From NCBI GenBank assembly GCA_910575165.1, contig CAJTDS010000008.1, positions 1 through 64,000 of the forward strand: a stretch of 64,000 bases of DNA, given 5' to 3'. The notes under the pieces were generated by a model. It saw only the letters and a list, made by a program, of their open reading frames with translations, was not told the origin of the DNA and ran no database searches. This DNA is from Eggerthellaceae bacterium. Its GTDB lineage: Bacteria; Actinomycetota; Coriobacteriia; Coriobacteriales; Eggerthellaceae. Made by a program: the position numbers and the translations under genes. Positions 12,263 to 32,758 of the stretch are shown here, in pieces (the stretch's first letter is position 1; the number at the start of each line of letters is the position of its first letter).

Positions 12263-13882
12263 CTACCGTCGCCGCTGGGATTGCCGCCCGATTCCAAGGG
12301 CCTCGCGGTACTTCGCGACGGTGCGGCGCTTGATGTCGACCCCCTCATTGTTGAGCAGGTCGGTGATGGCGGCGTCCGACAGGGGCTTGCGCGGGTCCTC
12401 CTGGGCCACCAGGTCACGAATGCGCGTCTTCACCGCCACGGACGAGACGGCCGCGCCGGGCCGGGAGCTCGAGCTGATGCCGCTGGTGAAGAAGAACCGC
12501 AGCGGGTAGGTGCCCCACGGCGTGAGCACGTGCTTGTCGGCGACGATGCGGCTGATGGTGGACACGTTGAATCCCAGGGCGTCGGCCGCCTGCTGCATGG
12601 TGAGGGGCCGAAGCGCCCGCTCCCCTTCGGCGAAGAAGGCGAATTGCGCCTCCACCAGATAGGTCCCGAAGCGGAACAGCGTCTGGCTGCGCTGCTCGAT
12701 GTTGGCGAGCACCCGCTTGGCGTCCTCGGCATGGCTGGAAAGCCATTCGCTGGCCCCCGAGTCGTCCTTCGCGTCCTGCGCGAGCTGGGCGTAGTCCTTC
12801 GAGAGCACCACCCGCTCCGCAAGCTCGCCCAGCACGCGCACCGAGAAGCCCGCGGGAGTGCGCGCGACGGAGATGTCCGGGATGACGTAGACCGTGTCGC
12901 GACTCTGGGAAAACGATGAGCCGGGGCGCGGGTTGAGCTCGCAGATCAGGCGGCGGACCTCGCCCAGTTCGTCAAGGCTTATCCGGTAGGTGCGCATGAG
13001 CTGGGTGGTGCGGTTGTCCGCCAGATCCTGCAGGCTCTCGGTCACGATGCGGCGGGCGAGCACCGTCACGTCGTCCTCGCCGGCAAGCTGCAGGGCCAGG
13101 CATTCGGCCAAGTCCCTGGCACCGACCCCGCGGGGCTGCAGCCCTTGGACGGCGGCCAGGGCCGATGCGACGTCCTCGAGCGGCACCTGCGCCTCGTGGG
13201 CCAGCCGATGGAGGCTTCCGGCGAAGTAGCCGTTGTCGTCGAGGCAGTCGATGACGGCGAGCACCAGCTCGTAGGTTGCGTCCGGGAGGTTGCGCCCGTC
13301 CACCTGCATGCGCAGAAAGCTCGCCAGGGTCTCGGTCTGGCAGCAGTCGTCACGCAGCCGGCGGGCATCCAGGTCCATGCCGAAGCCGCGGGCCTGGGCG
13401 CGGTCGTGGAACGCGACGTTGGTCAAGGAGGCGCCGAAGGAGTCATCGCGGCTGCCGCCCGAGCCCGGCCGAGGCTCGAACGCGGAGTCCTTCCGGTGGC
13501 TCCAGTCGTCGGCATGCGAGCCCTCCTGCGCCGCCAGCGCGCCGTCGCGATAGTCGTTCGAGCCGTCGCGGACCTGGGCGCGGTTGTGCTCGATGTCGCC
13601 ATGGCCCGAGTACCAGTTCGCCGAATCGTAGTTCAGGTCGCTTTCCGGCTGGTCATCATCGCGCAGGGAAAGCTCGCCGAAGGACAGGTCGCTTGTGGCG
13701 TAGTCAAGCTCGAGCAGCGGGTTCTGCTCGACGGCCTTGGAGATGTAGGTATCAAGGGCGGTGACGGGCAGGGAGAGCACTTCGAGGCCGTGGATGGCGC
13801 TGGGAGCCAGATGGTTCTTCGGCGCGACGGTGGTCCGAGAAGCGGACTGGAGCCGTACGCCCGAGCTTGCAGCACCGTGCAT
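12263..13882 (-). CDS. rpoN: RNA polymerase sigma-54 factor
   Basis: A 539-residue sigma-54. Region I is short and Gln-poor, ending VEQNPLLELDY (usual ELExNPLLE). An acidic region II follows, and then the core-binding domain with LQPRGVGARDLAECLALQL. The DNA-binding part contains AADALGFNVSTISRIVADKHVLTPWGTYPLRFFF, and the RpoN box at 518-526 reads KRRTVAKYR against the canonical ARRTVAKYR. This box reads the -24 element. GGGGAGG precedes the ATG. It is transcribed ahead of the activator gene. Sigma-54 is missing from most Actinobacteria, which makes this locus unusual for such a genome. Confidence 0.97.
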   Translation of the reverse strand: MHGAASSGVRLQSASRTTVAPKNHLAPSAIHGLEVLSLPVTALDTYISKAVEQNPLLELDYATSDLSFGELSLRDDDQPESDLNYDSANWYSGHGDIEHNRAQVRDGSNDYRDGALAAQEGSHADDWSHRKDSAFEPRPGSGGSRDDSFGASLTNVAFHDRAQARGFGMDLDARRLRDDCCQTETLASFLRMQVDGRNLPDATYELVLAVIDCLDDNGYFAGSLHRLAHEAQVPLEDVASALAAVQGLQPRGVGARDLAECLALQLAGEDDVTVLARRIVTESLQDLADNRTTQLMRTYRISLDELGEVRRLICELNPRPGSSFSQSRDTVYVIPDISVARTPAGFSVRVLGELAERVVLSKDYAQLAQDAKDDSGASEWLSSHAEDAKRVLANIEQRSQTLFRFGTYLVEAQFAFFAEGERALRPLTMQQAADALGFNVSTISRIVADKHVLTPWGTYPLRFFFTSGISSSSRPGAAVSSVAVKTRIRDLVAQEDPRKPLSDAAITDLLNNEGVDIKRRTVAKYREALGIGRQSQRRR

Positions 13883-14025
13883 GAAACCTCCCCATCTGGG
13901 TCGTCCCGTGGAAAGGGCCCACAGCTCGCTCGCGCCGCCAAAAGCGCCGTTCGTCTCCCCTTTGCTGGATACTGGGTTGTCAGTTATTCAACAAACGACG
14001 CGAATGGGTACACTTCTGGCAAAAC

Positions 14026-14041
14026 TAGCACGTTTTTTGCT
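14026..14041 (+). promoter_or_regulatory. Sigma-54-type promoter upstream of the GNAT gene
   Basis: TAGCACGTTTTTTGCT has the spacing of TGGCACG-N4-TTGCW and differs only in the second base of the -24 box, one of the conserved GG pair. It points at the GNAT gene whose ATG is at 14100 and lies in the divergent region next to rpoN. Confidence 0.5.
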
Positions 14042-14099
14042 ATCGCCCTTTGGTGGAACACATCTTAGTACTCCGCCACCTTGCGGTCAAGGAGGCTTC

Positions 14100-14588
14100 A
14101 TGGCTGCGCAATCGCCCGCATCCCCCACCTACGCCATCGTCGAATCTGGCAGCGAGCACAGCTCGGCCATCGCCCGCCTCGCGCTGCAGGCGGGGATGGG
14201 AGCGCTCTCCGACCGGGGCGTTTCCTTCGTTGCAGTGGAGGACGGCGCGTCCGATGCGGCAAAGGGCGAAGGCGGCGAAGGCGACGTGGGCAGCGGCAAG
14301 GTGCTCGGTTTCATCCGCATCGTGCGCAGCGCAGGACGCGACTACATCTGTCCCATCGTGGTCGACCCGTGCGCCCAAGGGCGCGGCGTGGGCGTGGCGC
14401 TCATGGACTTCGCCCACGAACGGTTCGGCACGCTGCGCTTCGTCGCCCGCGGGTCGGCCGTGCCCTTCTACGAGTCGCTGGGATGCCGCGAGACCTCTTG
14501 GTCGGACATCGCCCTCGACATCAGCAGCGACTGCGTGGACTGCCCCGACCGCGCCGGGTGCGCCCCCCAGCCCATGGTGTGGGACTAG
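14100..14588 (+). CDS. GNAT-family acetyltransferase
   Basis: A 162-residue acetyltransferase-like protein with the acetyl-CoA loop ICPIVVDPCAQGRGVGVALMDFA and the C-terminal SAVPFYESLGCRE. A cysteine-rich tail (CVDCPDRAGC) follows, which could bind a metal; that is inference. ATG 14100 follows AAGGAGG. The upstream open frame back to 13761 is antisense to rpoN and is discarded. A sigma-54-like promoter lies 59 bases before the start. The substrate is unknown. Confidence 0.8.
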   Translation: MAAQSPASPTYAIVESGSEHSSAIARLALQAGMGALSDRGVSFVAVEDGASDAAKGEGGEGDVGSGKVLGFIRIVRSAGRDYICPIVVDPCAQGRGVGVALMDFAHERFGTLRFVARGSAVPFYESLGCRETSWSDIALDISSDCVDCPDRAGCAPQPMVWD

Positions 14589-14675
14589 GCGCCCCCCTGC
14601 TGCGCGCCTTTCCGTCGCACGCCTTTCCGTCGCGCACCTTTCTGTCGCGCGCACAGCCCCCAAAGACGATGGCAG

Positions 14676-14731
14676 CCCACAGAATCGGCAGCTTGGGGAG
14701 AAAAAGCTCACGAACCTGCCGATTTTGCGGG
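14676..14731. repeat. Interspersed inverted repeat, copy A
   Basis: Arms at 14676-14695 and 14712-14731 match at 16 of 20 positions around a 16-base loop. The inner arm (GAACCTGCCGATT) and the A-rich loop are shared with copies at 38161 and 38362. It lies in a 342-base gap after the GNAT gene. The rest of the gap is a G/C-rich short-period repeat (14735-14850) built on GGGCGGAGCGGCGGGGCGGC-like units. Confidence 0.7.
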
Positions 14732-14734
14732 CTC

Positions 14735-14850
14735 CCGCCCGGCCGACGGGGGCGGAGCGGCGGGGCGGCCGACGGGGGCGGAGCGGCGGGGCGGCCGACG
14801 GGACGGAGCGGCGGGTCGGCTGACGGGTCGGCTGACGGGGCGGGCTGAAA
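14735..14850. repeat. G-rich short tandem repeat
   Basis: About 115 bases made of variations on CGGCCGACGGGGGCGGAGCGG and GTCGGCTGACGG, repeated four to five times. No coding potential is seen. It lies between the inverted repeat and the terminator at 14861, at the convergent end of two genes. Confidence 0.6.
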
Positions 14851-14860
14851 AGAGGGGCGG

Positions 14861-14930: not shown

Positions 14931-15728
14931 CTAGCGCTGGCGCTTGGCCTCGGGGGCGGGGTCGGCGGGGCCGGCGTAGGTCTGCACGATGGAGGCGTAC
15001 CTGCGGGCCTCGTCGCCCACCACCTCCAGGTCGGTGTCCATCCAGTTGCGGCGGCGGATGGCCACGAGCGCCCAGTCCTTGGCGGTTCCCTTGATGTAGT
15101 TCTGGTCGTTGGGCTCGCCCTTGGCCCACACCTCGCCGGAGGGCAGCGTCAGCTCCAGGTACATGGGCACCTCGGGGTCGAACTCGAGGCCGTTGACGTT
15201 GTACATGTTGGGGCGGCCCTGCCAGGAGAGGAACAGCGTGGAGGTGATGCGCTCCTTCACGACCGGGTCGATGCCCAGGGCGTCGTAGATGTCCACGCTG
15301 TGGGCCCACAGCTCCATGAGGCGCGCCGAGGCCAGGGAGCGCACGGACATGGGCGGGATGCCGGCGGCCCAGGGCACGCGGCCCTTCGGGCCCAGCTCCA
15401 TGAACTTGTCGCACATGATGGTGCGCTGCTCGCGCCACCAGTTCAGAATCTCGGCGCCGGTCTTGTCCTGGTAGGCCAGCACGTGGTAGTGCTCGTCCTG
15501 CTCGGAGGCGGCGTCGGCCACGGCGTTCACCGACTCGCCGCGCCCGCACAGAAGCTCGGCGGCGCAGTAGTCGAAGAAGGCGATGTGGGTGATGACGTCC
15601 TTGAGGGTCCAGGTGTCGCAGTAGGCGGCCTGGCGGTTCCAGTCCTCCTCGGTGAAGTCCTGCACGAGGGCGTCGATGGTGGACGCCTCGGCGATCAGGT
15701 CGTCGACGGGAGAGAAGATTTCAGCCAT
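14931..15728 (-). CDS. DinB-fold metal-binding protein (TIGR03084-like, maleylpyruvate isomerase superfamily)
   Basis: A 265-residue protein of the DinB/mycothiol-dependent maleylpyruvate isomerase superfamily. The N-terminal helix bundle is EIFSPVDDLIAEASTIDALVQDFTEEDW...TWTLKDVITHIAFFDY, with a further candidate metal ligand in MELWAHSVDIYDALG. The C-terminal half matches the extended TIGR03084-type architecture as I recall it. Relatives often sit beside acyl-CoA ligase and crotonase genes; their reaction is unsettled. ATG 15728 has AAGGAAC upstream, and a longer frame to 15770 is rejected. It is separated from the dehydrogenase gene by about 254 bases of structured sequence. Confidence 0.75.
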   Translation of the reverse strand: MAEIFSPVDDLIAEASTIDALVQDFTEEDWNRQAAYCDTWTLKDVITHIAFFDYCAAELLCGRGESVNAVADAASEQDEHYHVLAYQDKTGAEILNWWREQRTIMCDKFMELGPKGRVPWAAGIPPMSVRSLASARLMELWAHSVDIYDALGIDPVVKERITSTLFLSWQGRPNMYNVNGLEFDPEVPMYLELTLPSGEVWAKGEPNDQNYIKGTAKDWALVAIRRRNWMDTDLEVVGDEARRYASIVQTYAGPADPAPEAKRQR

Positions 15729-15982: not shown

Positions 15983-17161
15983 TTATTTGGCGGCGTAGGG
16001 CTTCTGGATGGCGCGGCCGGCGATGTGAATCATGATCTCGTCGGTACCGGCGCCGATGCGGTAGACGCGCTGGTCGCGCCACAGACGGGAGATACGGCAG
16101 TCCTTGGTGTAGCCGATGCCGCCCATGACCTGCATGGCGGTGTCGATGACATCGAAGGCCGCGCGGCCGCAGTACAGCTTCGCCACGGCGGAGTCGATCT
16201 GCACGGACTCGCCGTTGTCGATCTTCCACGCGGTGCGGTACACCCAGTTGCGCATGTTCTCGATCTTCATGTACATGTCGGTGATGTGCTCCTGGATGAG
16301 CTGGTTCTTGCCGATGGGCTTGCCGAACTGGATGCGCTGGGTGGCGTAGGTAACGGCATCCTCGAAAGCGCACTCGGCGGCACCGAGCGACTGGGCGCAG
16401 GCGATCAGGCGCTCCACCTCGAAGTTCACCATGGCCTGCATGAAGCCGTTGCCCTCGACGCCCACGAGGTCCTTCTCGTCAAGCTCGACGTCGGTCAGCG
16501 TCATCTCGCAGGTGTTGCCCATGTTCCAGCCGATCTTCTCCAGCGGCTCGATCTTGATGCCGGGCATGACGTTACCCTCGTCGTCGTGCAGCTGCACCCA
16601 CCACATGGACACGCGGCTGCGGTTCTTGGGGTCGGCCGGATCGTCGTCGGCATCGCGGGCCACGCACAACATGTACTTGGAGTTCACGGCGTTGGTCATG
16701 AAGGACTTCGAGCCATTGAGGTACACCTTGCCGTCGCGGCGCTTGAAGGTGGTGGCCACAGCCGAGCTGTCGGAACCGGCGCCGGGCTCGGTGAAGCCCA
16801 GCACGAAGCCAGGACGGCCGGCCATGACCTCGGCGAAGCACTGCTCCTGCTGCTCGGGAGAGCCGTACTCGGTCATGTCCTTCAGGGCGCACAGGTTGCC
16901 GTACACGTAGATGGGCGCGCCGTTCTTGCAGATGCGCTCGGAGACCAGCATGAGCGTCTGCACGTCCACGGGCGTGCCGCCGAAGGCCTCGTCAACGCCC
17001 AGCATCTGGAAGCCGTTCTCCAGAAGGGCGTCGGTGAACTCCTGGGGCCAGCGATGCTCTTCGTCGCACTGCTTGAAGTACTCCTCGGTGCCGTAGCGCT
17101 CCATGAGCTCGTCGACGCTCTCCAGCAACAGCTCCTGCTCGTCGGTAAGGCTGAAATCCAT
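15983..17161 (-). CDS. Acyl-CoA dehydrogenase, CaiA-like
   Basis: A 392-residue flavoprotein of the acyl-CoA dehydrogenase family. FAD/substrate signatures include GFTEPGAGSDSSAVATTFKRRDGKVYLNGSKSFMTNA, GNTCEMTLTDVELDEKDLVG and the C-terminal DTAMQVMGGIGYTKDCRISRLWRDQRVYRIGAGTDEI. The pattern resembles crotonobetainyl-CoA reductase CaiA, which reduces a 2-enoyl-CoA during anaerobic growth. No Etf genes are in the window. ATG 17161 is preferred over the longer frame to 17185, leaving a 24-base gap after the ligase gene. Confidence 0.9.
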   Translation of the reverse strand: MDFSLTDEQELLLESVDELMERYGTEEYFKQCDEEHRWPQEFTDALLENGFQMLGVDEAFGGTPVDVQTLMLVSERICKNGAPIYVYGNLCALKDMTEYGSPEQQEQCFAEVMAGRPGFVLGFTEPGAGSDSSAVATTFKRRDGKVYLNGSKSFMTNAVNSKYMLCVARDADDDPADPKNRSRVSMWWVQLHDDEGNVMPGIKIEPLEKIGWNMGNTCEMTLTDVELDEKDLVGVEGNGFMQAMVNFEVERLIACAQSLGAAECAFEDAVTYATQRIQFGKPIGKNQLIQEHITDMYMKIENMRNWVYRTAWKIDNGESVQIDSAVAKLYCGRAAFDVIDTAMQVMGGIGYTKDCRISRLWRDQRVYRIGAGTDEIMIHIAGRAIQKPYAAK

Positions 17162-17185: not shown

Positions 17186-19816
17186 TCACGCCTTCACGGC
17201 GTACTTCCACACTCCGTCTACGAGCGCGCGCTCCACTTCCCCGGTACGGACCAGATGCTCCAGGTAGGCGTCCACTTCGCAGTACATGATGAACCGCTTC
17301 ATGAACGGAACGGACGACCAGGAATCGGTGCGCGTGCTCCATGGAATGGTTTTAGCAACATCCGTGCCAACCACACCGGGCTTGGCCGCGATCGCCCCCC
17401 GAATCTCTTCCAAGCGGCTGCGCACCCTGTCGGCTATGGTCCGCGCGCGCTCCCTCACCTGCTGCTGGGCGAGCACGCGGCGGGCAGGCCCGTGGCCCAC
17501 GAAGCCGCGGTCGAAGTCCAGGCAGGCGATGCGCTCCATGGTGTCCAGCTGCGCCTGCACCAGATCGGCGTCGCTGCCGTCGAAGGAGCCCATGACGCAA
17601 GGGTTCACCTCCATGAGCACCGCGTCGCCGAAGAACACCGAGCGGCTCTGCTCGTGCAGCAGCGCCGCATGGCCCACGGTATGGCCGGCAACCCCTACCA
17701 CGCGAAAGTCCTGGCTGCCCACCGAGATCGTCTCCCCGTCCTCCACGAAGGTGACCCGGTCGCGGTCGAAGCGGCCGCCGCCCTGCTCGGCCACGGCGAC
17801 GTAAGCCGCAAGCTCGGCCATCTCCGCGCTCCCAAGGCCCAGCCGCTCCATCTTTTCCAGCAGCTCCCGGCGAAACGCCTCGGTCTGCTCGTAGGCCACA
17901 GCGTCGGCGTCGGCGCGGGTCATGAAAATGCGGCCGTCGGGTCCGCCCACGGAAAAGGCCAGGCCGCGATGGTCGAAGTGGTGGTGAGTCAAAAACACGT
18001 CCACGCTTTCGGGGGCGAAACCTATCTGGCGTCGGGCCAAGGTGATGGCCTCCAGGGAGCGCTCCTCGCACACGCCCGTGTCCACCAGCAGCGCGCGCTC
18101 GCCGCAATCGACGAAGTAGGCGTTGGTGGGGTCGTGGGATCTCAGCCCCGTGGGCACCGAGATGCAGTAGATGGGCGGATCGTCGACCACCTGGGTGTAG
18201 GACTTCGGGGCAACTTCGTCCTTGGCCCGCTCGAAGCGCTCGGCCACCTCGTCGCGACGCACCTTGCCCGCATCGTCGCGGCCGATGTCGTCGACGAACA
18301 GCACGTAGCGGGGCTTCTTGTAGCTGGCGAGGGACCTCTTGCACCAGTCCTGGATGTCAGCTTTGGACAGCTCCACGCCCGGTTCCGGCTGCACGACGGC
18401 GGCCACGGCCTCGCCCATGACCGGATCGGCGGTGCCCAGCACCACCACGTCGGCCACGCCGGGATGCTCGGACACGACGCGCTCCACCTCGCCGATGAAC
18501 ACGTTCTCGCCGCCCGACTTGATGATGTCCCGCTTGCGGGATACCAGCGTGCAGTAGCCCTGGGCATCGCGCACCATGATATCGCCTGTGCGCAGCCAGC
18601 CGTCCTCGGTGAACGCGCGCTGCGTAAGCTCGGGCTGGTTCCAGTACCCGGCCATCACCGCGCCGGAGCGCACCTGGGCCTCGCCGGCCACGCCGGGTCC
18701 CACCTCGCGCCCTTCCTCGTCCACCACCCGCAGCTCAAGCCCCGTCATGGGCCGCCCCACGCTCTCCAGCAACGGCGACTTGTCCTGCAGCATCTGGCGC
18801 GTGATGACCAGCGTGGTGCCCAGGCCGCTTTCGGACTGGCCCCAGCCGTAGTTGAGCACGGCGTTGGGGAAATGGCGGTAGATGGACCCGATCATGCGAT
18901 GGCTCGTGGCGCCGGCGGCGCTTTGCACCAGCTGCACCGAGGACAGGTCGTAGTCGTCGATGGTGGGACAATGGAGCAGCCGCAGGTAGGTGATGGGCGG
19001 CAGCAGGATCATGTGGGTGACGCGGCGCCGCTCGATCTCGGCCAGGATGTTCTCAGCCGAAAACACCGCGCAGATGACAAGGGTGGCTCCGGCGGCGAAG
19101 GCCATGGTGAACCAGCTGTGGCCGCCATGATGCTCGAGCGGGCACTGGATGAGCACCACGGGGTGCTCGCAGGACTCTATGGCGCTGGAATCCAGCACGC
19201 CGGCCAGCTCCACCAAATCGGCGCGGTGGGTGCGGCGGGCGCCCTTCGGCAGGCCGGTGGAGCCGCCGGTGAACTGGATGCGCGAGAACGACTCGGCGTC
19301 GGCGAACAGCTCGGGCTCGACGGCGGAAGCCTCCCCTCGCGCCCGATCCAGATCGACCACCTCCACGCCGCACAGCGACTTGGCCACCGGCGCCTTGGCG
19401 TTTCCGGCCCGCGTGCAGGCAAGGGCGATCGGGTCGTCCATGAGCTCCACCGCTTCAGCCACCTTCTCGGCGAAGTCGGCCGCGAACACGAGCACCGAGG
19501 CGCCGGAGGACTGCAGCAGGTAGGCCAGCTCGCGGGCGATGTGCTTGAAGTTGATGGGCACAACCGCCGCCCCCAGCTTCTGCGCCGCGTAGTAGACCTC
19601 GAGAATCTCGATGCAGTTGGGAAGCAGATAGGCCACCCGGTCGCCCGCCGCAGCTCCCAACCGGGCGGCAAGCACGTCGGCGGTACGGTTGACCTCGTCA
19701 TTGAGCTGGGCATACGTCAGCTCCTGGTCTTTGAAGACCACGGCCGTCCTGTCGGGAACGCGCCGGACGGAAGCCAGCAGCGGTTCGGCAACGTTGGAGA
19801 AGCGGTCCGTATCCAT
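17186..19816 (-). CDS. Acyl-CoA ligase fused to a metallo-beta-lactamase-fold hydrolase
   Basis: An 876-residue two-domain protein. Residues 1-535 are an AMP-forming acyl-CoA synthetase with the P-loop QFTGGSTGLPKGA (181-193), the A5-type motif YGWGQSESGLG, the TGDIM aspartate near 412 and the catalytic lysine in DDAGKVRRDEV (about 518). Residues 545-876 are a metallo-beta-lactamase fold with HHHFDH (611-616), H712 in GHTVGH, D731 in FFGDAV and H775 in GHGP, so every zinc ligand is kept. The first domain would make acyl-CoA from acid, ATP and CoA. The second resembles glyoxalase-II-type thioester hydrolases, so one chain may both form and cleave a thioester, or the second domain may act on another ester. 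It follows the crotonase by 118 bases and precedes the dehydrogenase by 24. Confidence 0.9.
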   Translation of the reverse strand: MDTDRFSNVAEPLLASVRRVPDRTAVVFKDQELTYAQLNDEVNRTADVLAARLGAAAGDRVAYLLPNCIEILEVYYAAQKLGAAVVPINFKHIARELAYLLQSSGASVLVFAADFAEKVAEAVELMDDPIALACTRAGNAKAPVAKSLCGVEVVDLDRARGEASAVEPELFADAESFSRIQFTGGSTGLPKGARRTHRADLVELAGVLDSSAIESCEHPVVLIQCPLEHHGGHSWFTMAFAAGATLVICAVFSAENILAEIERRRVTHMILLPPITYLRLLHCPTIDDYDLSSVQLVQSAAGATSHRMIGSIYRHFPNAVLNYGWGQSESGLGTTLVITRQMLQDKSPLLESVGRPMTGLELRVVDEEGREVGPGVAGEAQVRSGAVMAGYWNQPELTQRAFTEDGWLRTGDIMVRDAQGYCTLVSRKRDIIKSGGENVFIGEVERVVSEHPGVADVVVLGTADPVMGEAVAAVVQPEPGVELSKADIQDWCKRSLASYKKPRYVLFVDDIGRDDAGKVRRDEVAERFERAKDEVAPKSYTQVVDDPPIYCISVPTGLRSHDPTNAYFVDCGERALLVDTGVCEERSLEAITLARRQIGFAPESVDVFLTHHHFDHRGLAFSVGGPDGRIFMTRADADAVAYEQTEAFRRELLEKMERLGLGSAEMAELAAYVAVAEQGGGRFDRDRVTFVEDGETISVGSQDFRVVGVAGHTVGHAALLHEQSRSVFFGDAVLMEVNPCVMGSFDGSDADLVQAQLDTMERIACLDFDRGFVGHGPARRVLAQQQVRERARTIADRVRSRLEEIRGAIAAKPGVVGTDVAKTIPWSTRTDSWSSVPFMKRFIMYCEVDAYLEHLVRTGEVERALVDGVWKYAVKA

Positions 19817-19934: not shown

Positions 19935-20696
19935 CTACTTGCTGAAGCGCTCCATGGTTTTGGCGTAGGCCGCCGTGGTGGTGCAGAAGGGCGAGGCCGT
20001 GGACTCCGCCTGCATGCACGCGTTCAGGTTGCCGTCGGCCAGGGAGTTCAGGATGCCCTTGGTGATCTGGATGGAAGGCGCGGGCATGGAGGCCACGGTG
20101 CGGGCCAGGTCCATGGCGACGGACTCCAGCTCCTCGGGGGTGGTCAGGCGGTTGACCAGGCCCCAGTCGTGCATCTTCGATGCGGGGATCTTGCCGCCGA
20201 TGTAGAGGATCTCCTTGGCACGCTGCATGCCCACCAGCTTGGGCAGCATGTCCATCATGCCCATCTCGGGGATGATGCCGATCTGGCAGAACGCCGGCAC
20301 AAAGGAGGTGCGCTCGGTCGCCACCACCAAATCGGAGGCCAGGGTCATGGCGAAGGCGCCGCCCACCGCGTAACGGTCCACCATGGCGACGATGGGCTTG
20401 GCCATGGTGCGCATGCGCTGGATGAGGTGCACGTAGTTCAGAAACGTGGCGCGGGCCTCTTCGGGCGTGGGCTTGTGGTCGGACTGGCTGAGGTCTCCCC
20501 CGCTGGAGAACACGTCGCCCTCGCCGCGCAGCAGCACAGCACGCACGTCGTCATCGGCATCGCCGGCGGCCAGCAGGCCGTCGAGCTTGATCATCATGGC
20601 GGCGGAGATGGCGTTCTTCTTGGCGGGCTGGTTCAGGTAGATCACCTGGACGCCGTCTACGGGGGCGTCGGCGTACACAACGTCTTTGTCGGACAT
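19935..20696 (-). CDS. Enoyl-CoA hydratase/isomerase (crotonase family, CaiD-like)
   Basis: A 253-residue crotonase-fold protein. The oxyanion-hole segments are FSSGGDLS and YAVGGAFAMTLASDLVVATERTSFVPAFCQIGIIPEMGMMDMLPKLVG. The usual catalytic glutamate of the second motif is shifted or replaced, since this family varies there, so hydratase, racemase-like or isomerase activity cannot be separated by eye. Context (ligase, CaiA-like dehydrogenase, CaiB-like transferases) recalls CaiD. ATG 20696 follows AAGGAAC; the longer frame to 20756 would swallow its sigma-54 promoter. Confidence 0.88.
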   Translation of the reverse strand: MSDKDVVYADAPVDGVQVIYLNQPAKKNAISAAMMIKLDGLLAAGDADDDVRAVLLRGEGDVFSSGGDLSQSDHKPTPEEARATFLNYVHLIQRMRTMAKPIVAMVDRYAVGGAFAMTLASDLVVATERTSFVPAFCQIGIIPEMGMMDMLPKLVGMQRAKEILYIGGKIPASKMHDWGLVNRLTTPEELESVAMDLARTVASMPAPSIQITKGILNSLADGNLNACMQAESTASPFCTTTAAYAKTMERFSK

Positions 20697-20739: not shown

Positions 20740-20755
20740 TGCATATTTCGTGCCA
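20740..20755 (-). promoter_or_regulatory. Sigma-54 promoter of the crotonase gene
   Basis: TGGCACGAAATATGCA on the minus strand matches TGGCACG-N4-TTGCW except for A in place of the first T of the -12 box. The predicted start site is about 33 bases before the ATG. It lies directly after the terminator of the reductase gene, so it would restart transcription for the crotonase/ligase/dehydrogenase genes. Confidence 0.75.
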
Positions 20756-24420: not shown

Positions 24421-24436
24421 AGCAAATATCGTGCCA
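24421..24436 (-). promoter_or_regulatory. Sigma-54 promoter of MFS 1 and the reductase
   Basis: TGGCACGATATTTGCT on the minus strand is a full match to TGGCACG-N4-TTGCW. The predicted start site is about 83 bases before the MFS ATG. It serves a two-gene unit ending at the terminator at 20773. Confidence 0.85.
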
Positions 24437-24536: not shown

Positions 24537-25802
24537 CTACACCCAGAGCCTGCGGGCGGAGCGCACCACCACCGGACAGAGGATGGCGCACAGGACGTAG
24601 ATGGCGATGACCAGCACGAAATCGGCCGTGAAGCTGCCCGTGACGTCGTAGAGGAAGGACAGGGCGAAGCCGGCCAGGGCCGACAGGAGCGATATGCCCG
24701 AGGACACCCAGGAGTAGATCTCGGAGAAATGAGCCGAGCCGAAGCCCTGGCTGCCCAGTAGCGGGCTCACGATGGACAGGGCCGAATAGCCCAGCCCGAA
24801 CAGCGCCGTGCCGAGGAAGAACAGCGCGGCGTTCGCGCCGGAGACGAGAATGATGGCTACGCCGGCGGCGCCGAACACGCTGGAGGTGATGCCGGCGCGC
24901 ACGGCTCCCACCTTGTCGGCAAGCCAGCCGAACCCGGGCTTGCCAACGATGGAGCCCACCATGGCGATGGACACCGCGTAGGCGCCCACCATGGCTCCCA
25001 GCTCGCCGGTGGAGCAGTAGGCGGAAAGATGCTGCACCAGCGTGGCGCAGAAGCCGAAGCCGCCCGCCACCAAAATCAGCAGGTAAAGAGCCGGAGAGCG
25101 GCGGGCCTGGGAAGCCGTCGCGCCCTGTTCGACCAACATGACCGACGCCTTCGCCCCCTGGGAACCTTCCTTCGCACGCTCGGCCCGCTCGGGATTCGCC
25201 CCGTAGGGAAGCACGCCCATGGACTCGGGGCTGCGCCGCAACAGCAAGGCCGTGGGCAGCGCGGAGAGCAGCATGCAGGCGACGCTCATGACCACGCGGG
25301 CTGTCTGCCAGCTCGACGCGTCGATGATCACCTGGGTGATGGGGCTGCACACTGCAGCGAACACGCCGATAAACGCGCTCGCCACGCCGATAGCAAGGCC
25401 GTTTCGCTTCCTGAACCAGATGTTGACGATGGTGGGAAGCGCAAGGAACAGGATGAATCCGGCGCACACGCCGTAGACGGCGCCGTAGACGACCCACTGC
25501 CAAGGCTGCGTGTACAACGCGCAGGCCATGGCGTTTGCGCCGAAGACCACCGAGGTGGCCGTAAGCACCCAGCGCGGGTTGAGCCGGGCGAGCACCTTGC
25601 CGGCAAAGGGGGCGGTGGCTGCGGCGACCAGCTGCTGAACGATGAGGTAGAGGGTGGTCTGGGTCCGGGACCAGCCGAACTCGTCCATGATGGGCTGCAC
25701 GTACACGCCCTGGCAGTTGCCGATGACGCCTACGGGCACGGCGTAGAAGGCGATGCACGCCACCAGGATGACCCATGCGTAATGGACTTTCCGACCCGCC
25801 AT
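24537..25802 (-). CDS. MFS transporter, OFA type, paralogue 2
   Basis: A 421-residue, 12-helix carrier clearly related to its neighbours: MAGRKVHYAWVILVACIAFYAVPVGVIGNCQGVYVQPIMDEFGWSRTQT, FAGKVLARLNPRW and SPESMGVLPYGAN. No sigma-54 element lies directly upstream, so it is probably co-transcribed with the CoA-transferase gene 163 bases upstream. The 209 bases between it and the next carrier hold an inverted pair CTGCCG/CGGCAG near 24480 and the next promoter. Confidence 0.9.
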   Translation of the reverse strand: MAGRKVHYAWVILVACIAFYAVPVGVIGNCQGVYVQPIMDEFGWSRTQTTLYLIVQQLVAAATAPFAGKVLARLNPRWVLTATSVVFGANAMACALYTQPWQWVVYGAVYGVCAGFILFLALPTIVNIWFRKRNGLAIGVASAFIGVFAAVCSPITQVIIDASSWQTARVVMSVACMLLSALPTALLLRRSPESMGVLPYGANPERAERAKEGSQGAKASVMLVEQGATASQARRSPALYLLILVAGGFGFCATLVQHLSAYCSTGELGAMVGAYAVSIAMVGSIVGKPGFGWLADKVGAVRAGITSSVFGAAGVAIILVSGANAALFFLGTALFGLGYSALSIVSPLLGSQGFGSAHFSEIYSWVSSGISLLSALAGFALSFLYDVTGSFTADFVLVIAIYVLCAILCPVVVRSARRLWV

Positions 25803-25965: not shown

Positions 25966-27207
25966 TTAGCCGAACGGCGTCTCTTCCTTCTTCAGAAGGC
26001 CGCTCTCGTACATGGCCGCAACCTCGTCGGCGGTGGCGCCCAGCTCTTCCAGGATATCCTCGTTGTCCGCGCCCACGAGCGGCATGCCGCGCCAGATCTG
26101 GCCCGGGTTCTGCTTGAGCTTCGGCACGATGTTCACACCGCGGATGGTGCCCTCGTCGTAGGAGTTCTTCCACTCCGTGAAGCTCTCGCGGGCGATGTAG
26201 TGGGGGTCCTTCTCGGCGATGGCGAAGTTATAGATACGGCTGCAAGGCACGCCGCACTCCAGCATGATCTTCTCGGCTTCCTCGGCGTCGTGCTCGGAGA
26301 AGAACTTCTCCATGGCCGCCTCCAGGACGTCGCCGGCCTCGGTGCCGAAGGCCACCACGGGGGTGCCCACGGGGAACAGGTCGCTGCCGTACTCCAGGCC
26401 GAAGGCGGGGACGGCCTTCTTCACCACGCCGGGGCCCAGGATGAGCACGTAGATGGGCACGCCGTCCTTGCAGATGTAGGTGCCGTAGCCGGCCGAGGAG
26501 GTGGAATGGCTGCCCTCGCGCACGGGAAGGGCCCCGGTGTTGAGGTAGTTAACCGCGTAGAAGCCCTCGCAGCGAAGCATGGCCTCGTACTGGGCAACGT
26601 CGACGCTCTCGCCCTTGCCGGTCTTCTGGGCGTTGATGTAGCCGGCAAGCGCTCCCAGATCGGCCATGAAGCCGGCGTAGTAGTCGCTCACCTGCGGGAA
26701 CGCCAGAACGGGCAGACGGTCCGGGAAGCCGTTCATTTCCATGAAGCAGCCGTAGGCCTGGCCGATGCCGTCGAAGGAGGCGCGGCCGATGTAAGCCGGG
26801 TCGCCGGTCTGGCCGAAGCCGGAGATGTGCACGATGGTGAGCTTGGGGTTGACCTCCCACAGCACCTCGTCGGGCATGCCCCACTTGGCCATCTGGCCGC
26901 CGCGGAAGCCATCCATGAGGATGTCGGCGTCCTTGAGCAGCTTGAAGAAGTACTCGCGGCCCTCGCCCTCCTTCACGTTCATGCACAGGCTGCGCGTGTT
27001 GCGGCGCTCCATCTGGGTGCCCCAACCCTGAAGCTTCTCGTTCTGCGGACGGGAGGTATCGCGCCCAAGGGGACTCTCGATGCCGATGACGTCGGCGCCC
27101 ATGTCGGCCAGAAGCCCGCAGGCGAAGGGGCCGGCGATGGCCATGGTCAGGTTCACGACGCGCACACCCTGCAGCGGTCCGAACTTGGGACAATCTTGCG
27201 TTTTCAT
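25966..27207 (-). CDS. CaiB-like type III CoA-transferase, paralogue 1
   Basis: A 413-residue family III CoA-transferase. It opens KFGPLQGVRVVNLTMAIAGPFACGLLADMGADVIGIE as in carnitine CoA-transferase CaiB. It continues with VLWEVNPKLTIVHISGFGQTGDPAYIGRASFDGI and ends with IVPKLKQNPGQIWRGMPLVGADNEDILEELG, very close in style to CaiB. The catalytic aspartate should be the one in GKGESVDVAQYEAMLR. It moves CoA between acids, here probably from a product thioester to a new substrate. It has its own sigma-54 promoter 32 bases (predicted leader) upstream. Confidence 0.92.
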   Translation of the reverse strand: MKTQDCPKFGPLQGVRVVNLTMAIAGPFACGLLADMGADVIGIESPLGRDTSRPQNEKLQGWGTQMERRNTRSLCMNVKEGEGREYFFKLLKDADILMDGFRGGQMAKWGMPDEVLWEVNPKLTIVHISGFGQTGDPAYIGRASFDGIGQAYGCFMEMNGFPDRLPVLAFPQVSDYYAGFMADLGALAGYINAQKTGKGESVDVAQYEAMLRCEGFYAVNYLNTGALPVREGSHSTSSAGYGTYICKDGVPIYVLILGPGVVKKAVPAFGLEYGSDLFPVGTPVVAFGTEAGDVLEAAMEKFFSEHDAEEAEKIMLECGVPCSRIYNFAIAEKDPHYIARESFTEWKNSYDEGTIRGVNIVPKLKQNPGQIWRGMPLVGADNEDILEELGATADEVAAMYESGLLKKEETPFG

Positions 27208-27249: not shown

Positions 27250-27265
27250 AGCAAAAGCCGTGCCA
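27250..27265 (-). promoter_or_regulatory. Sigma-54 promoter of CoA-transferase 1
   Basis: TGGCACGGCTTTTGCT on the minus strand is a full match to the consensus. Its -24 box lies three bases from that of a divergent element on the plus strand (27269-27284). Confidence 0.85.
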
Positions 27266-27268: not shown

Positions 27269-27284
27269 TGGCATCTCTTTTGCA
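27269..27284 (+). promoter_or_regulatory. Sigma-54-type promoter facing the Hsp70-like gene
   Basis: TGGCATCTCTTTTGCA keeps the invariant GG and GC pairs at correct spacing and differs from the best consensus only after the -24 GGCA. It points at the plus-strand gene at 27398. The leader would be about 100 bases. It is the weaker half of a back-to-back promoter pair. Confidence 0.5.
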
Positions 27285-27397: not shown

Positions 27398-28162
27398 ATG
27401 GCTCTTTTCAAGAACTCGGCGAAAACCCCCGCCATGGACAAGTGCGACCAGGTCGCGTTCGTCCTGGAACCGGAAAACGGCACGCTGCCCCTGCCCATCT
27501 GCATCGAGATACCGGGGGGTCGCGCCCACGAGGTCATCCCCGCCGGCGTGAAGCTTCCCTACAAGACCACCCAGATTTTCTCCACTGTTGACCCCTACCA
27601 GCTTGCCGCCGAATTCCACCTGGTAGCAGGCACGCGGCCGCTCGTCCGCGACAACATAGAGCTGGGGCGGGTGCGCATCCGCGATGTGAAGTGGGCCGGC
27701 GCGGGCAAGCCCAAGCTCGAGGTCAGCTTCGCCATAGCCAAGGACGGGACGCTCACCGTCAACGCCGACAACCTGGACAAGAAGCGCACGGAAATGCTGG
27801 CCCACGTCGAACGGTCGAGCGTGAGCGCCGAAGAGGCAGCCGCCGCCAAGGCCGCAGCCGAAGCCGCCGCAGAGCACGACCAGTGGATGGAGCGGTGCAT
27901 CGACGAGATGCTGGTGGGCTACGCGCTCATGGATGCCGCCTACGAGCGCTACGCCGTAGCCAAGAAGAAGCTCAATCCCATGCAGAGCCGCGAGTACAAG
28001 CAAGCCCGGCGGCGCCTGCAGAAAGCCCTGAACGTCATGCCGCCCGAGGCTACGCCCGAGACCATGGCCGAGCTCAACGCGGCGCGCGAGGCATTCGACG
28101 CCATCTACGAAAGCCACAAGCCGGTCTACGACGCCGTCATGGCGTGGTTCGACAAGCAGTAG
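27398..28162 (+). CDS. Stand-alone Hsp70 substrate-binding-domain-like protein
   Basis: A 254-residue protein that looks like the peptide-binding half of DnaK without its ATPase. Residues 29-135 follow the Hsp70 beta-sandwich: LPLPICIEIPGGRAHEVIPAGVKLPYKTTQIFSTVDPYQ (compare LGIET-GG and IPRNTTIP in DnaK), then VAGTRPLVRDNIELGRVRIRDV, KPKLEVSFAIAKDGTLTVNA. Residues 140-254 are charged, Ala-rich helices resembling the lid. No actin-fold motif is present, and the upstream bases hold no frame for one. It is the only plus-strand gene inside the island, and a sigma-54-like element faces it. A chaperone-adaptor or sensor role is inference. Confidence 0.75.
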   Translation: MALFKNSAKTPAMDKCDQVAFVLEPENGTLPLPICIEIPGGRAHEVIPAGVKLPYKTTQIFSTVDPYQLAAEFHLVAGTRPLVRDNIELGRVRIRDVKWAGAGKPKLEVSFAIAKDGTLTVNADNLDKKRTEMLAHVERSSVSAEEAAAAKAAAEAAAEHDQWMERCIDEMLVGYALMDAAYERYAVAKKKLNPMQSREYKQARRRLQKALNVMPPEATPETMAELNAAREAFDAIYESHKPVYDAVMAWFDKQ

Positions 28163-28401: not shown

Positions 28402-29682
28402 TTACTTCGCCCAAGCGCGACGGCCCATGGGAACGATGATCAGGGCCAGGACGACGATCAGCACGTAGAAGATGATGTTCATCCAGAACGCGCCGGCGTA
28501 GGAACCGGTGATGTCGAAGATCTGGGCGTAGATCAGGGCCGAGAAGCCGGAGAACACGTTCAGACCGGTAGCGACCACGGAGAACACGCTGGCGTAGTCC
28601 TTGTCGCCGAAAGCCTGCTGGCAGGTCAGCGGCGGAACCACGTTCAGAGCGGAGTAGCCGATGCCGAACAGGCCAACGCCCACGTAGAACATCATCTCGG
28701 AACCGCCGGACACCAGAGCCACGGCGGCACCGGCAGCGCCCAGAACGCCAGCCACGATGCCGGACATCTTGGCACCGAAGTGGTCGGAGATCCAGCCCAG
28801 ACCGAACTTGCCGATCATGGAGGTCACCATGGCCACGGACACGGCCAGAGCGCCCACGGCGGCACCGTCGGTGAACAGCGTGTTGGTGGAAGCGTAGCGG
28901 GCCAGCTGCTGCACGAAGGAAGCAGAGATAACGAACATGCCGGCCATGAGGATGAGGAGCCACAGAGCGGGCTGCTTCAGAGCCTCGCCGCGGGTCAGAC
29001 CCTGGGTCTCCTTGACCTCGGTGACCTTGGCCTCGGCGCTCTTGGCGCGGTCAGCCTCGGCGGCGTCGTAGCCCCAGGGCTTCACGCCCATCTTCTCGGG
29101 AGACTCGCGCAGCAGGGCGAAGGTGACGCCAGCGCCGGCGACGAGCACGATGACGGAGCAGATGATACGAGCCTGCTGCCAGCCCCAGGTGGCAATCCAA
29201 CCGCCGATGATGGGGCTCATGATGGCGCCGAACAGCGACACGAACACGCCGATGGCACCGATGACCGAGCCGTTGTTCTTGGCGAACCAGCGGTTGACCA
29301 TCGTGGGCGTGGCGATGTACATCCAGAACGCGGCGGACGCGCCGTAGAGCACGCCGTAGACGTTCCACTGCCACGGAGCGGTGAACCAGGCGCAGGCGAG
29401 GTTGGCCAGGCCGAACACCAGAACGGCGGCGCCCAGGATCCAGCGGGGGTTGTACTTCATGATCAGCTTGCCGGCGAACGGCGTGCAGATGGCGGCCACC
29501 CAGGGCTGGATGGACATGAACAGCGAAGCCTCGGTCTGAGACCAGCCGAACTCGTTGATGACGGGCGTCAGGAACAGGCCCGCATGGTTGGCGGCGAAGC
29601 CCAGCGGCACGGCGTAGAACGCGATGCAGGAGATCGCGATCGCCCAGGCGTAATTACTGCCCTTAACTTGTGAAGATCCCAT
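28402..29682 (-). CDS. MFS transporter, OFA type, paralogue 3
   Basis: A 426-residue, 12-helix carrier: MGSSQVKGSNYAWAIAISCIAFYAVPLGFAANHAGLFLTPVINEFGWSQTEA, FAGKLIMKYNPRW and SPEKMGVKPWGYD. It is the third member of the local OFA group and differs from the others at the end of the central loop (PWGY in place of PYGA). ATG 29682 has AAGGAGA upstream, and a longer frame to 29739 would overlap the sigma-54 promoter. Confidence 0.9.
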   Translation of the reverse strand: MGSSQVKGSNYAWAIAISCIAFYAVPLGFAANHAGLFLTPVINEFGWSQTEASLFMSIQPWVAAICTPFAGKLIMKYNPRWILGAAVLVFGLANLACAWFTAPWQWNVYGVLYGASAAFWMYIATPTMVNRWFAKNNGSVIGAIGVFVSLFGAIMSPIIGGWIATWGWQQARIICSVIVLVAGAGVTFALLRESPEKMGVKPWGYDAAEADRAKSAEAKVTEVKETQGLTRGEALKQPALWLLILMAGMFVISASFVQQLARYASTNTLFTDGAAVGALAVSVAMVTSMIGKFGLGWISDHFGAKMSGIVAGVLGAAGAAVALVSGGSEMMFYVGVGLFGIGYSALNVVPPLTCQQAFGDKDYASVFSVVATGLNVFSGFSALIYAQIFDITGSYAGAFWMNIIFYVLIVVLALIIVPMGRRAWAK

Positions 29683-29734: not shown

Positions 29735-29750
29735 AGCAAAAACCGTGCCG
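29735..29750 (-). promoter_or_regulatory. Sigma-54 promoter of MFS 3
   Basis: CGGCACGGTTTTTGCT on the minus strand matches the consensus except for the first base. The predicted start site is about 42 bases before the MFS 3 ATG. Confidence 0.78.
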
Positions 29751-29852: not shown

Positions 29853-29886
29853 TGGCATGGAAATTACAAGACTATATTTTCCATGC
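29853..29886. repeat. Inverted repeat downstream of CoA-transferase 2
   Basis: GGCATGGAAA is paired with TTTTCCATGCC around about 13 bases, just beyond the stop codon at 29895. It could be a T-poor terminator of CoA-transferase 2 or a protein-binding dyad upstream of the MFS 3 promoter. Confidence 0.5.
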
Positions 29887-29894: not shown

Positions 29895-31139
29895 TTATTC
29901 GCCCTTCTTGATGACGCCCTTCTCGTAGAGCAGCTCGATCTCGGCGGGCGAGTAGCCGAACTCCTCCAGGATGTCATCGGTATCGGCGTTATACTTCGCG
30001 CCGCCGCGGACCACCTGGCCAGGATGCTTCGAGAACTTCGGCATCATGTTGACCTGCTTGACGTCCTTGTCGGTGATCTCGTCGTGCACCTCGATGAACA
30101 CCTCGCGGGCCTTGTAGTGCGAGTCCTCCAGCATCATGGCGTAGGTCATGTGCGGGGAAACCGGGATGCCCATCTCGGAGAAGGTCCTGTTCACCTCTTC
30201 GACGGTACGGGCCTCGCACCACTCGTCGAGCGCCTTGCGGAATTTCGCGGCGCGCGGCGGCAGCGGGTCGTCCAGGCTCTTGCAGCCCGGGGCGCGGGTG
30301 ATGGAGGCGTAGGAACCCAGCGGCTGGAAGTCCGGGTCGTCGGCAAAGCCGAAGAACTCCACCAGCTTGCGCACGGGACCGGCGCCGCCCACGGCCACCT
30401 GGCAGTAGCCGTCGAGGCACTTCTGGGCACCGGCGCAGGCGCCCACCAGGTCCTCGTTGCCGATGCGCATGGGCTGGATGCCGTGGTTGATGCCGTCGGA
30501 GAGCGTGGCTCCCTGAATGCGCACCAACGACTCGAACTGCGTGCAGTCGATGGACTCGCCCTCGCCGGTCTCACGGGCGCGGATGACCGCAGCCAGCGTG
30601 GCCCACGCGCCCATGAGAGCCGTGGCGAAGTCGCCCGTGAAGGGCTTGGTCACGTTGGGCGGGCAGCCCGGGAAGCCGTTGAGGTTGGAGTAGCCGGAGA
30701 AGGCCTGTCCGATGGGGTCGAAGGACGCCTTGCGGACGTAGTCCGGGTCGCCCCAGTTGCCGAAGCCGGAGATGTGCAGGATGACGAGCGCGGGGTTGGC
30801 CTCCCACAGCACCTCGTCGGTGAGGCCCCACTTGGCCCAGGTGCCGCCCTTGGAGGACTCCACCAGAACGTCGGCCCATTTCACCATCTGAAGCAGGATC
30901 TCCTTGCCCTCGGGAGAGGGAATGTTCAAGGTCATCATGCGCTGGTTGCGGCGGTCGACGGACCAGGCATCGCCGTACATACGGTACATGTCGGGAGCCA
31001 TCACGCTTTCCAGCTCGATAACGTCGGCGCCCTGCTCGGCGAACAGCTCGCACACGAAGGGCGCGGCGATGACTGCACCCGCGTTGAGAACCTTCAGGCT
31101 CTGCAAGTTGCCGAACTTGGGACGATCAGCTGACTTCAT
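29895..31139 (-). CDS. CaiB-like type III CoA-transferase, paralogue 2
   Basis: A 414-residue family III CoA-transferase: KFGNLQSLKVLNAGAVIAAPFVCELFAEQGADVIELE, VLWEANPALVILHISGFGNWGDPDYVRKASFDPIGQAFSG, a catalytic segment GEGESIDCTQFESLVR with the expected aspartate, and NMMPKFSKHPGQVVRGG near the end. Residues 195-300 diverge most from paralogues 1 and 3, suggesting a different acyl substrate. Two sigma-54 promoters in tandem precede it. Confidence 0.92.
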   Translation of the reverse strand: MKSADRPKFGNLQSLKVLNAGAVIAAPFVCELFAEQGADVIELESVMAPDMYRMYGDAWSVDRRNQRMMTLNIPSPEGKEILLQMVKWADVLVESSKGGTWAKWGLTDEVLWEANPALVILHISGFGNWGDPDYVRKASFDPIGQAFSGYSNLNGFPGCPPNVTKPFTGDFATALMGAWATLAAVIRARETGEGESIDCTQFESLVRIQGATLSDGINHGIQPMRIGNEDLVGACAGAQKCLDGYCQVAVGGAGPVRKLVEFFGFADDPDFQPLGSYASITRAPGCKSLDDPLPPRAAKFRKALDEWCEARTVEEVNRTFSEMGIPVSPHMTYAMMLEDSHYKAREVFIEVHDEITDKDVKQVNMMPKFSKHPGQVVRGGAKYNADTDDILEEFGYSPAEIELLYEKGVIKKGE

Positions 31140-31224
31140 AGGCTACCTCCTTGGTATTTGGACGGGACGCCCGATGCGGAATCCCCTCTCTCCGTCGCAC
31201 CTAAACGACGCACTGATCCTTGCA

Positions 31225-31240
31225 AGCAACATTCATGCCA
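31225..31240 (-). promoter_or_regulatory. Sigma-54 promoter of CoA-transferase 2, proximal
   Basis: TGGCATGAATGTTGCT on the minus strand matches TGGCAYG-N4-TTGCW in full. The predicted leader is about 75 bases. Confidence 0.8.
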
Positions 31241-31317
31241 ACTTCTTCCGGAGACGCACCTTCCCTCTGCGCTCCCCTTCCGTCGGCATCTCCTGCTGCC
31301 CGGCTGCTATTCCTCCA

Positions 31318-31333
31318 AGCAACTTCCGTGCCA
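31318..31333 (-). promoter_or_regulatory. Sigma-54 promoter of CoA-transferase 2, distal
   Basis: TGGCACGGAAGTTGCT on the minus strand is a full match, 93 bases upstream of the proximal element. The predicted leader is about 168 bases. It lies about 100 bases past the stop codon of CoA-transferase 3. Confidence 0.8.
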
Positions 31334-31432
31334 AATATCACGGCGAACGGTATCTTTTTCGGGAGCGAAGGGCACAATTCAAGCGGGCAGCGGTTTGCGG
31401 CGAAGGGCGCCAAAAGGCCCTGCAGAAGAATC

Positions 31433-32674
31433 CTACACGCCGGGTTGGAAATAGGGGTGTTTACCCAGCAGGCGGCTTTCGTACATGGATGCTATCTGCC
31501 CCTCGTCAAGGCCCAGCTCTCCTAAGATGTCCTCGTTGTCCTGGCCGATGGAGGGGGCTCCGCGCCACACGCGCCCCGGGAAGTTCGCCGTCTCGGGCAC
31601 CACCTTCACGCCGGGGATGGTGTCGCTGCCGTCGCTGGAGGCCCACTCGGCAATGATGCCGCGCGCCTGGCAGTGGGGATGGTTGCGCAAGGCCTCGTAG
31701 TCCATGATACGCGAGCAGGGCACGCCGCCGTTTGCCAGGACGTCCTCCACCTCGGCCGCCGTACGCGTGGAGATGAAGTCCGCAAAGGCCGCCTCCGCCA
31801 CTTCCGCCGCGCGGCTTCCGTAGGGGATGATGCCCTCCCCTTCCGGGAAAAGCTCGCTTCCGTACTCCAGCCCGATGAGCGGCAGGCCCGCCCTCAGGAC
31901 GCCCGGCCCCAAAAACAGCACGTGCACCTCTTCCCCGTCGGCGCATTCGTAGGTGCCGTAGAGGGCGCAGATAAGGCTGTGGCTGCCCTCCTTCACGTAG
32001 TCGGCGCCGTAGTGCCAGTAGTCGGTGGGGTACTGGGACTGGGTGCGCAGGAGCGTTTCGAACTGGGCGATGTCGAAGGACTCCCCCTTGCCGGTCTGCG
32101 TGCGCTTGAGCAGGGCGGCCACGGTCATGCCGAAGGCGTAGAAGGAGGCCGAGTAGTCGCCGGGAAACACCATGGCCGGCAGCGAGGGCATGCCAGGAAA
32201 GCCGTTCATGCGCATGGTGCCGCTGAAGGCCTGGGCGATGGGGTCGTAGCTGGCGCGCTTGACGTAGGCCGGATCGCCCGTCTGGCCGAAGCCGGAGATA
32301 TGGGCGATGACCAGGCCCGGGTTGCGCTCCCACAGCACCTCGTCACCCAGGCCGTTGCGCTCGAAGCGGCCGCCCGTGGACGCCTCGATGAGCACGTCGG
32401 CGGTCTCGATGAGCGAAAGAAACGCCTCGCGGCCCTCGTCGTGCAGATAGTCCATGGCCAGCGAGCGCATGTTGCGCCGGTCCTGCTGCCAGCTGCCGCC
32501 GTGACCCGACATGCGGCCCATATCCGGCACGGTAGGGTGCTCGATCCAGATGACGTCGGCGCCGTTTTCCGCGTACAGCTCGGCGGCGAAGGGGGCTGCC
32601 ACAGAAAGCCCAATAAGCACCACCCGGTACCCGGACAAAAGTCCGAACTGGGGAATCTCAGACGTTTTCGCCAT
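31433..32674 (-). CDS. CaiB-like type III CoA-transferase, paralogue 3
   Basis: A 413-residue family III CoA-transferase: QFGLLSGYRVVLIGLSVAAPFAAELYAENGADVIWIEHP, VLWERNPGLVIAHISGFGQTGDPAYVKRASYDPIAQAFSGTMRMNG, GKGESFDIAQFETLLR with the catalytic aspartate, and VVPETANFPGRVWRGAPSIGQDNEDILGELG. The opening segment is close to CaiB. ATG 32674 follows GGAGGAGG; the longer frame to 32851 would cross its promoter. It is the first gene of the island on the minus strand. Confidence 0.92.
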   Translation of the reverse strand: MAKTSEIPQFGLLSGYRVVLIGLSVAAPFAAELYAENGADVIWIEHPTVPDMGRMSGHGGSWQQDRRNMRSLAMDYLHDEGREAFLSLIETADVLIEASTGGRFERNGLGDEVLWERNPGLVIAHISGFGQTGDPAYVKRASYDPIAQAFSGTMRMNGFPGMPSLPAMVFPGDYSASFYAFGMTVAALLKRTQTGKGESFDIAQFETLLRTQSQYPTDYWHYGADYVKEGSHSLICALYGTYECADGEEVHVLFLGPGVLRAGLPLIGLEYGSELFPEGEGIIPYGSRAAEVAEAAFADFISTRTAAEVEDVLANGGVPCSRIMDYEALRNHPHCQARGIIAEWASSDGSDTIPGVKVVPETANFPGRVWRGAPSIGQDNEDILGELGLDEGQIASMYESRLLGKHPYFQPGV

Positions 32675-32742
32675 GGGAACCTCCTCCCCGCCCGGCGCCG
32701 CAGCGACTTGGGCGGCTATGCCTTGTGCTTCGCGAAGCATTC

Positions 32743-32758
32743 TGCAAGATTCATGCCA
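32743..32758 (-). promoter_or_regulatory. Sigma-54 promoter of CoA-transferase 3
   Basis: TGGCATGAATCTTGCA on the minus strand matches TGGCAYG-N4-TTGCW in full. The predicted leader is about 58 bases. Confidence 0.8.

Follow-up and report, generated by a model that had tools for sequence, protein, structure and literature searches.

We describe a predicted sigma-54 regulon in a stretch of 64,000 nucleotides (nt) from an Eggerthellaceae bacterium (contig CAJTDS010000008.1 of assembly GCA_910575165.1), hereafter the window. It is highly probable that one island in this window is a substrate-induced sigma-54 regulon comprising RpoN, a DhaR/AcoR-like activator and about ten promoters, the products of which would reduce a carboxylate via a coenzyme A (CoA) ester. 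The best reading is of a working system in a high-GC actinobacterium that is nearly confined in cis. We favor it because -24/-12 boxes cluster genome-wide in the island, they leave phylogenetic footprints, there is no excess of boxes in rpoN-less relatives, and the island is always found with rpoN. Genes, boxes, conservation and linkage to rpoN were read from the sequence (Table 1).

The assembly comprises 2,718,829 bases in 41 contigs (99.7% complete, 0.3% contaminated, about 66% GC), and genome-wide work consisted of pattern searches; the whole-genome scan proposed in the original prediction was thus run as a search for the box consensus TGGCAYG-N4-TTGCW. Exact matches occur at only eight sites in the whole genome. 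Six are in the window, all on the minus strand between 17354 and 32758 (15.4 kb), and the probability of finding at least six of eight within 15.4 kb is 9e-13. By comparison, the reversed control pattern has a single match in the whole genome. When one mismatch is allowed there are 40 sites, 11 of them in 18.7 kb of the island, a stretch for which the rest of the genome predicts 0.2. We restricted the analysis to exact and one-mismatch sites because a two-mismatch scan of the window was no better than shuffles (18 sites versus 19) and such a loose scan is uninformative. Two exact sites were taken as chance matches: the one at C5:92720 falls within a gene encoded on the opposite strand, and downstream of C12:10915 there is no clear plus-strand gene.

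Nine of the 10 island sites have GG, and all have GC. Start codons with Shine-Dalgarno-like sequences follow the boxes by 42-192 nt at eight genes: GNAT (start at 14100), dehydrogenase (17161), ECH (20696), MFS1 (24327), three CoA-transferases (27207, 31139 and 32674, the second with two boxes) and MFS3 (29682). The boxes at 27250 (minus) and 27269 (plus) are arranged back to back with 3 bp between them and face CoA-transferase 1 and a DnaK-like gene, respectively. Sigma-70-like sites are at chance level in the island (2 versus 2.3). A one-mismatch site at 29853 (plus) was rejected as a decoy, as its -12 GC is broken and no plus-strand gene lies downstream. The original prediction had listed eight elements, five exact and three with one mismatch, plus a ninth, weaker one at 27269 (plus strand, one mismatch). 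All are found at the positions and on the strands given, but the list was incomplete, as the exact minus-strand box at 17354-17369 had been overlooked. The seven listed minus-strand boxes, placed there at 33-180 bases before start codons, measure 42-178 nt from the box end. The presence beside the island of rpoN with its RpoN box and of a GAFTGA activator was likewise borne out by Pfam domains over cut-off and by the motifs themselves.

The island RpoN meets the Pfam cut-offs for all three domains (AID 24.6 bits versus 23.8, CBD 152 versus 22.9, DBD 171 versus 22.8) and aligns with solved sigma-54. Its RpoN box reads RRTVAKYRE and is identical in nearly all island RpoNs compared. The open reading frame (ORF) of the activator reaches 12417, with a likely ATG at 12204, and its translation contains Walker A and GAFTGA motifs (Pfam Sigma54_activat, 5e-64). 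A structural model of its sensor, of modest confidence (mean predicted local distance difference test score 67.5), best matches E. coli DhaR(N) (E 1.8e-11). An alignment of three relatives' loci (L069, L048 and L068) shows a possible sigma-A promoter of rpoN: close to the divergent GNAT box, the rpoN strand carries a sequence resembling TTGAAA-N17-TAAAAT. Unlike in these loci, the sequence is not clear upstream of rpoN in the window.

The block MFS1-OYE-ECH-ligase-dehydrogenase-TIGR03084 / GNAT / RpoN-activator is kept in Eggerthella sinensis, Gordonibacter sp. An230 and three Adlercreutzia species, and in Slackia with some rearrangement. A single-contig relative with the same arrangement (G070) almost certainly belongs to Eggerthella lenta. 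Orthologous box positions are common to Eggerthella, Gordonibacter, Adlercreutzia and partly Slackia, and their flanks are unconserved; upstream of MFS1, the box is the sole clearly conserved block among seven genomes. The GNAT-gene box keeps the same variant in relatives, where it reads TAGCACGATTTTTGCT, and the back-to-back pair is present in Eggerthella sinensis (L069). Of 138 Eggerthellaceae genomes, 15 encode the island dehydrogenase (at least 82% identity), and all 15 have rpoN (Fisher 7e-12), although conservation counts take in related genomes and hence non-independent events. Island genomes contain a mean of 6.6 exact boxes (control 1.3), compared with 1.35 (control 1.40) in 20 rpoN-less members of the family. 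In all 10 orthologues, four wobble positions of the box inside the ligase gene are A/T, versus roughly 20% at most other codons. The residues encoded there vary (V/D/T/N/S at one codon, V/L/I at another). Thus, we infer selection on the DNA and not only on the protein.

A likely further member of the regulon is found on another contig, C20, where the genome scan identified a one-mismatch box (C20:15787, TGGCACACTATTTGCT) 93 nt before the ATG of the EtfB homologue. The operon continues with EtfA, a FixC-like flavoprotein and a FixX-like ferredoxin. In relatives, EtfB-EtfA directly follow the activator, with a box. By analogy, this FixABCX/YdiQRST-type operon should serve as the electron-transfer partner set expected for the YdiO/CaiA-type dehydrogenase, because E. 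coli ydiO goes with ydiQRST and the island dehydrogenase is 52% identical to YdiO. The regulon, originally described as self-contained, is therefore nearly so, but with a boxed operon on C20 and with a second rpoN/activator pair in the genome.

Table 1. Coordinates of sigma-54 boxes and genes of the island, and of the second rpoN/activator pair.
Feature	Position	Strand	Evidence or context
Activator (bacterial enhancer-binding protein), DhaR/AcoR type	10135..12204	-	GAF-PAS-like N-terminal sensor, AAA+ with GAFTGA, C-terminus Fis-like by eye
RpoN (sigma-54), 539 aa	12263..13882	-	Pfam DBD 2.1e-50, CBD 1.9e-44, AID 2.3e-5
Box TAGCACGTTTTTTGCT	14026..14041	+	one mismatch; 58 nt before GNAT gene
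GNAT acetyltransferase	14100..14588	+	divergent from rpoN; Pfam Acetyltransf_7
TIGR03084 metal-binding (DinB/MDMPI-like) protein	14931..15728	-	over cut-off; no own box
YdiO/CaiA-type acyl-CoA dehydrogenase	15983..17161	-	NCBIfam PRK12341, 634 bits versus cut-off 537
Acyl-CoA ligase (AMP-forming) fused to metallo-beta-lactamase domain	17186..19816	-	Pfam
Box TGGCACGGATGTTGCT	17354..17369	-	exact; within 3' end of CoA-ligase gene, 192 nt before dehydrogenase ATG
Enoyl-CoA hydratase/isomerase family (ECH)	19935..20696	-	Pfam ECH_1
Box TGGCACGAAATATGCA	20740..20755	-	one mismatch; 43 nt before ECH gene
OYE/2,4-dienoyl-CoA reductase-like flavoenzyme (BaiCD/FadH-like)	20833..22974	-	profile matches
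MFS carrier 1	23062..24327	-	NCBIfam SfMCT 2.3e-35, under cut-off; codon usage
Box TGGCACGATATTTGCT	24421..24436	-	exact; 93 nt before MFS1
MFS carrier 2	24537..25802	-	Pfam MFS_1; probably read through from CoA-transferase 1
CaiB-like class III CoA-transferase 1	25966..27207	-	Pfam
Box TGGCACGGCTTTTGCT	27250..27265	-	exact; 42 nt before CoA-transferase 1
Box TGGCATCTCTTTTGCA	27269..27284	+	one mismatch, weaker; before DnaK-like gene
DnaK substrate-binding-domain-only protein	27398..28162	+	Pfam HSP70 profile positions 390-592 of 599; no ATPase domain
MFS carrier 3	28402..29682	-	Pfam MFS_1
Box CGGCACGGTTTTTGCT	29735..29750	-	one mismatch; 52 nt before MFS3
CaiB-like CoA-transferase 2	29895..31139	-	profile matches
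Box TGGCATGAATGTTGCT	31225..31240	-	exact; 85 nt before CoA-transferase 2
Box TGGCACGGAAGTTGCT	31318..31333	-	exact, second box; 178 nt before CoA-transferase 2
CaiB-like CoA-transferase 3	31433..32674	-	profile matches
Box TGGCATGAATCTTGCA	32743..32758	-	exact; 68 nt before CoA-transferase 3
rpoN2	L045 (G000:C5:126000-145999) 8816-10309		second rpoN of genome
Activator 2	L045 10353-12215		beside rpoN2

Each of the unboxed genes (those for the TIGR03084 protein, the ligase fusion, the OYE flavoenzyme and MFS2) has a boxed gene upstream in the same orientation. Sigma-54 could thus transcribe the minus-strand island throughout, from 32674 to 14931. The best solved relatives of CoA-transferase 1 are crotonobetainyl-CoA:carnitine CoA-transferases (CaiB). 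The dehydrogenase falls below the CaiA cut-off (406 versus 540 bits), and the TIGR03084 protein shares 77-86% identity with copies in Eggerthellaceae relatives. A carnitine (cai) operon label was rejected because the CaiB and CaiA equivalog cut-offs are missed, so the cluster is cai-like only. Also rejected was a bile-acid (bai) reading, as the OYE flavoenzyme scores 297 bits versus a BaiCD cut-off of 825. Matches to the ligase fusion in Slackia and Oscillospiraceae span the ligase part only. The DnaK-like protein, which has its own sigma-54 box, has homologues in several relatives. Elsewhere in the window, dehydroquinase II and M24 peptidase domains occur in one ORF (38510-40528).

From these features we infer that the island is transcribed, what its signal and substrate may be and that the pathway runs toward reduction. 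RpoN with core polymerase would occupy about ten -24/-12 promoters, and the adjacent activator may sense a cytoplasmic signal, probably the pathway substrate or its CoA ester, and open the promoters through its AAA+ GAFTGA domain. The predicted output is a set of carriers, CaiB-like CoA-transferases, CoA ligase, crotonase, OYE-type reductase and YdiO/CaiA-type dehydrogenase, and the boxed operon on C20 would feed electrons to the dehydrogenase. The regulon most likely controls CoA-dependent reduction of a carboxylate, which would be imported, activated to the CoA ester and reduced anaerobically, much as in E. coli cai/fix or ydi.

Several results weigh against this reading. No convincing upstream activating sequence shared among 44 promoters was found using dyads and k-mers, and the seven-genome alignment has no additional conserved block near MFS1; thus, activator binding at the promoters stays putative. 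The activator C-terminus resembles a Fis-like helix-turn-helix by eye, with no Pfam HTH_8 match. The CoA-transferases score 335-360 bits versus an L-carnitine CoA-transferase cut-off of 413. The presence of two rpoN genes, each beside an activator (the two activators are 46% identical), also counts here, as the second RpoN could serve some of the promoters. The boxes may then be real and read by both RpoNs, or driven mainly by the second pair, on contig C5. We consider this unlikely, as no exact or one-mismatch island-type box occurs in the 20 kb around the C5 pair, which has its own TGGCAYGN4GCGCW boxes, and most other island genomes have a single rpoN, located in the island. Far less probable still is that the repeated element is a site for another regulator that resembles -24/-12, with RpoN decayed or acting elsewhere. 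The missing activator-binding motif would fit such a site, but the GG and GC positions match the sigma-54 consensus, the excess of boxes is confined to island genomes, all of which have rpoN, and RpoN is intact with a conserved RpoN box. That the matches arise by chance in GC-rich DNA, or that the contig is foreign or mis-binned, can practically be dismissed: the two-mismatch count equals that of shuffles, but chance is refuted for exact matches by their concentration in one island, box positions are conserved between orthologous loci of many genera, and the window is on one contig of a near-complete, scarcely contaminated assembly, with the same arrangement in single-contig G070.

The neighbors of rpoN2 include an OYE flavoenzyme, a CoA-transferase, two DASS/CitMHS carriers and a dehydrogenase 58% identical to that of the island. 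The TGGCAYGN4GCGCW boxes precede the OYE and CoA-transferase genes and represent two of the genome's four such sites. In a phylogenetic tree, island RpoNs form one clade (98/96). The second RpoN of the genome branches deeply on its own, as does each of three other Eggerthellaceae types, and none of these falls among the RpoN proteins of other Coriobacteriia families. Other Eggerthellaceae rpoN loci (L054, L057 and L063) have TGGCACG-N4-TTTCA-like boxes with -12 TC rather than GC, two each in L054 and L057. In L049, L053, L054 and L057, rpoN and an activator are beside a molybdopterin oxidoreductase (Pfam-confirmed in L049 and L057), and L049 also has two MFS carriers. The L049 activator has a PAS domain by Pfam, and HTH_8 was found in both activators tested from the molybdopterin-oxidoreductase loci. 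We tentatively suggest that Eggerthellaceae sigma-54 systems might be mobile cassettes, each RpoN with its own activator and catabolic cluster, largely confined to that cluster and with orthogonal promoter dialects (TTGCW, the second pair's GCGCW and, near others, TTTCA). In metagenome-assembled Oscillospiraceae loci (L070-L073 and L076), the catabolic cluster has no rpoN beside it, and most of these loci show a near-consensus box upstream; their dehydrogenases are 87-89% identical and the neighbors only about 42-63%. An origin in Clostridia is possible given a shared TPWG/TSWG-type RpoN motif, although the tree does not settle this (93/87).

The island shares with classical sigma-54 catabolic modules of the DhaR and AcoR type a GAFTGA AAA+ activator with a DhaR-like sensor and -24/-12 promoters before catabolic operons. 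It differs in that rpoN itself is inside the module beside the activator, nearly all promoters are within 19 kb and the host is an actinobacterium. Multiple rpoN genes per genome with apparently separate targets are known from RpoN1-4 of Rhodobacter/Cereibacter sphaeroides (PMC12316311); here, however, each rpoN shares a catabolic cassette with an activator, and the variants represent separate deep clades. CaiB-like transferases, a CaiA/YdiO-type dehydrogenase, an AMP ligase, a crotonase and a FixABCX-type electron-transfer flavoprotein are shared with E. coli caiTABCDE-fixABCX and ydiO-ydiQRST, whereas the island has three MFS carriers in place of CaiT, three transferases, an OYE flavoenzyme and predicted sigma-54 control.

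Actinobacteria have been reported to lack a sigma-54 system (PMC3162934, 2011) and a functional RpoN, with high GC suggested as the cause, as sigma-54 would be unable to separate promoters from background (PMC12316311, 2025). In contrast to both surveys, a complete three-domain RpoN and a predicted regulon are present here at about 66% GC. The high-GC argument fails for this genome because the exact consensus occurs only eight times in 2.7 Mb, six of them in one regulon. Among sampled genomes, rpoN is over cut-off in 18 of 396 from the phylum, in agreement with the rarity found by the surveys, and in 98 of 398 from the class Coriobacteriia, for which the original prediction had proposed such a count. 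Its statement that sigma-54 is missing from most Actinobacteria thus stands for the phylum, whereas rpoN is common in this class. We found no paper on sigma-54 in Eggerthella among the open-licence papers searched.

Eggerthella lenta, Adlercreutzia, Gordonibacter and Slackia are gut bacteria whose metabolism of drugs and polyphenols has been studied, and the presence of the system in such genera makes it directly testable. The regulon appears to be inducible and tightly defined, and its inducer would reveal the substrate. It represents a rare case of a sigma factor seemingly dedicated to the cluster with which it travels.

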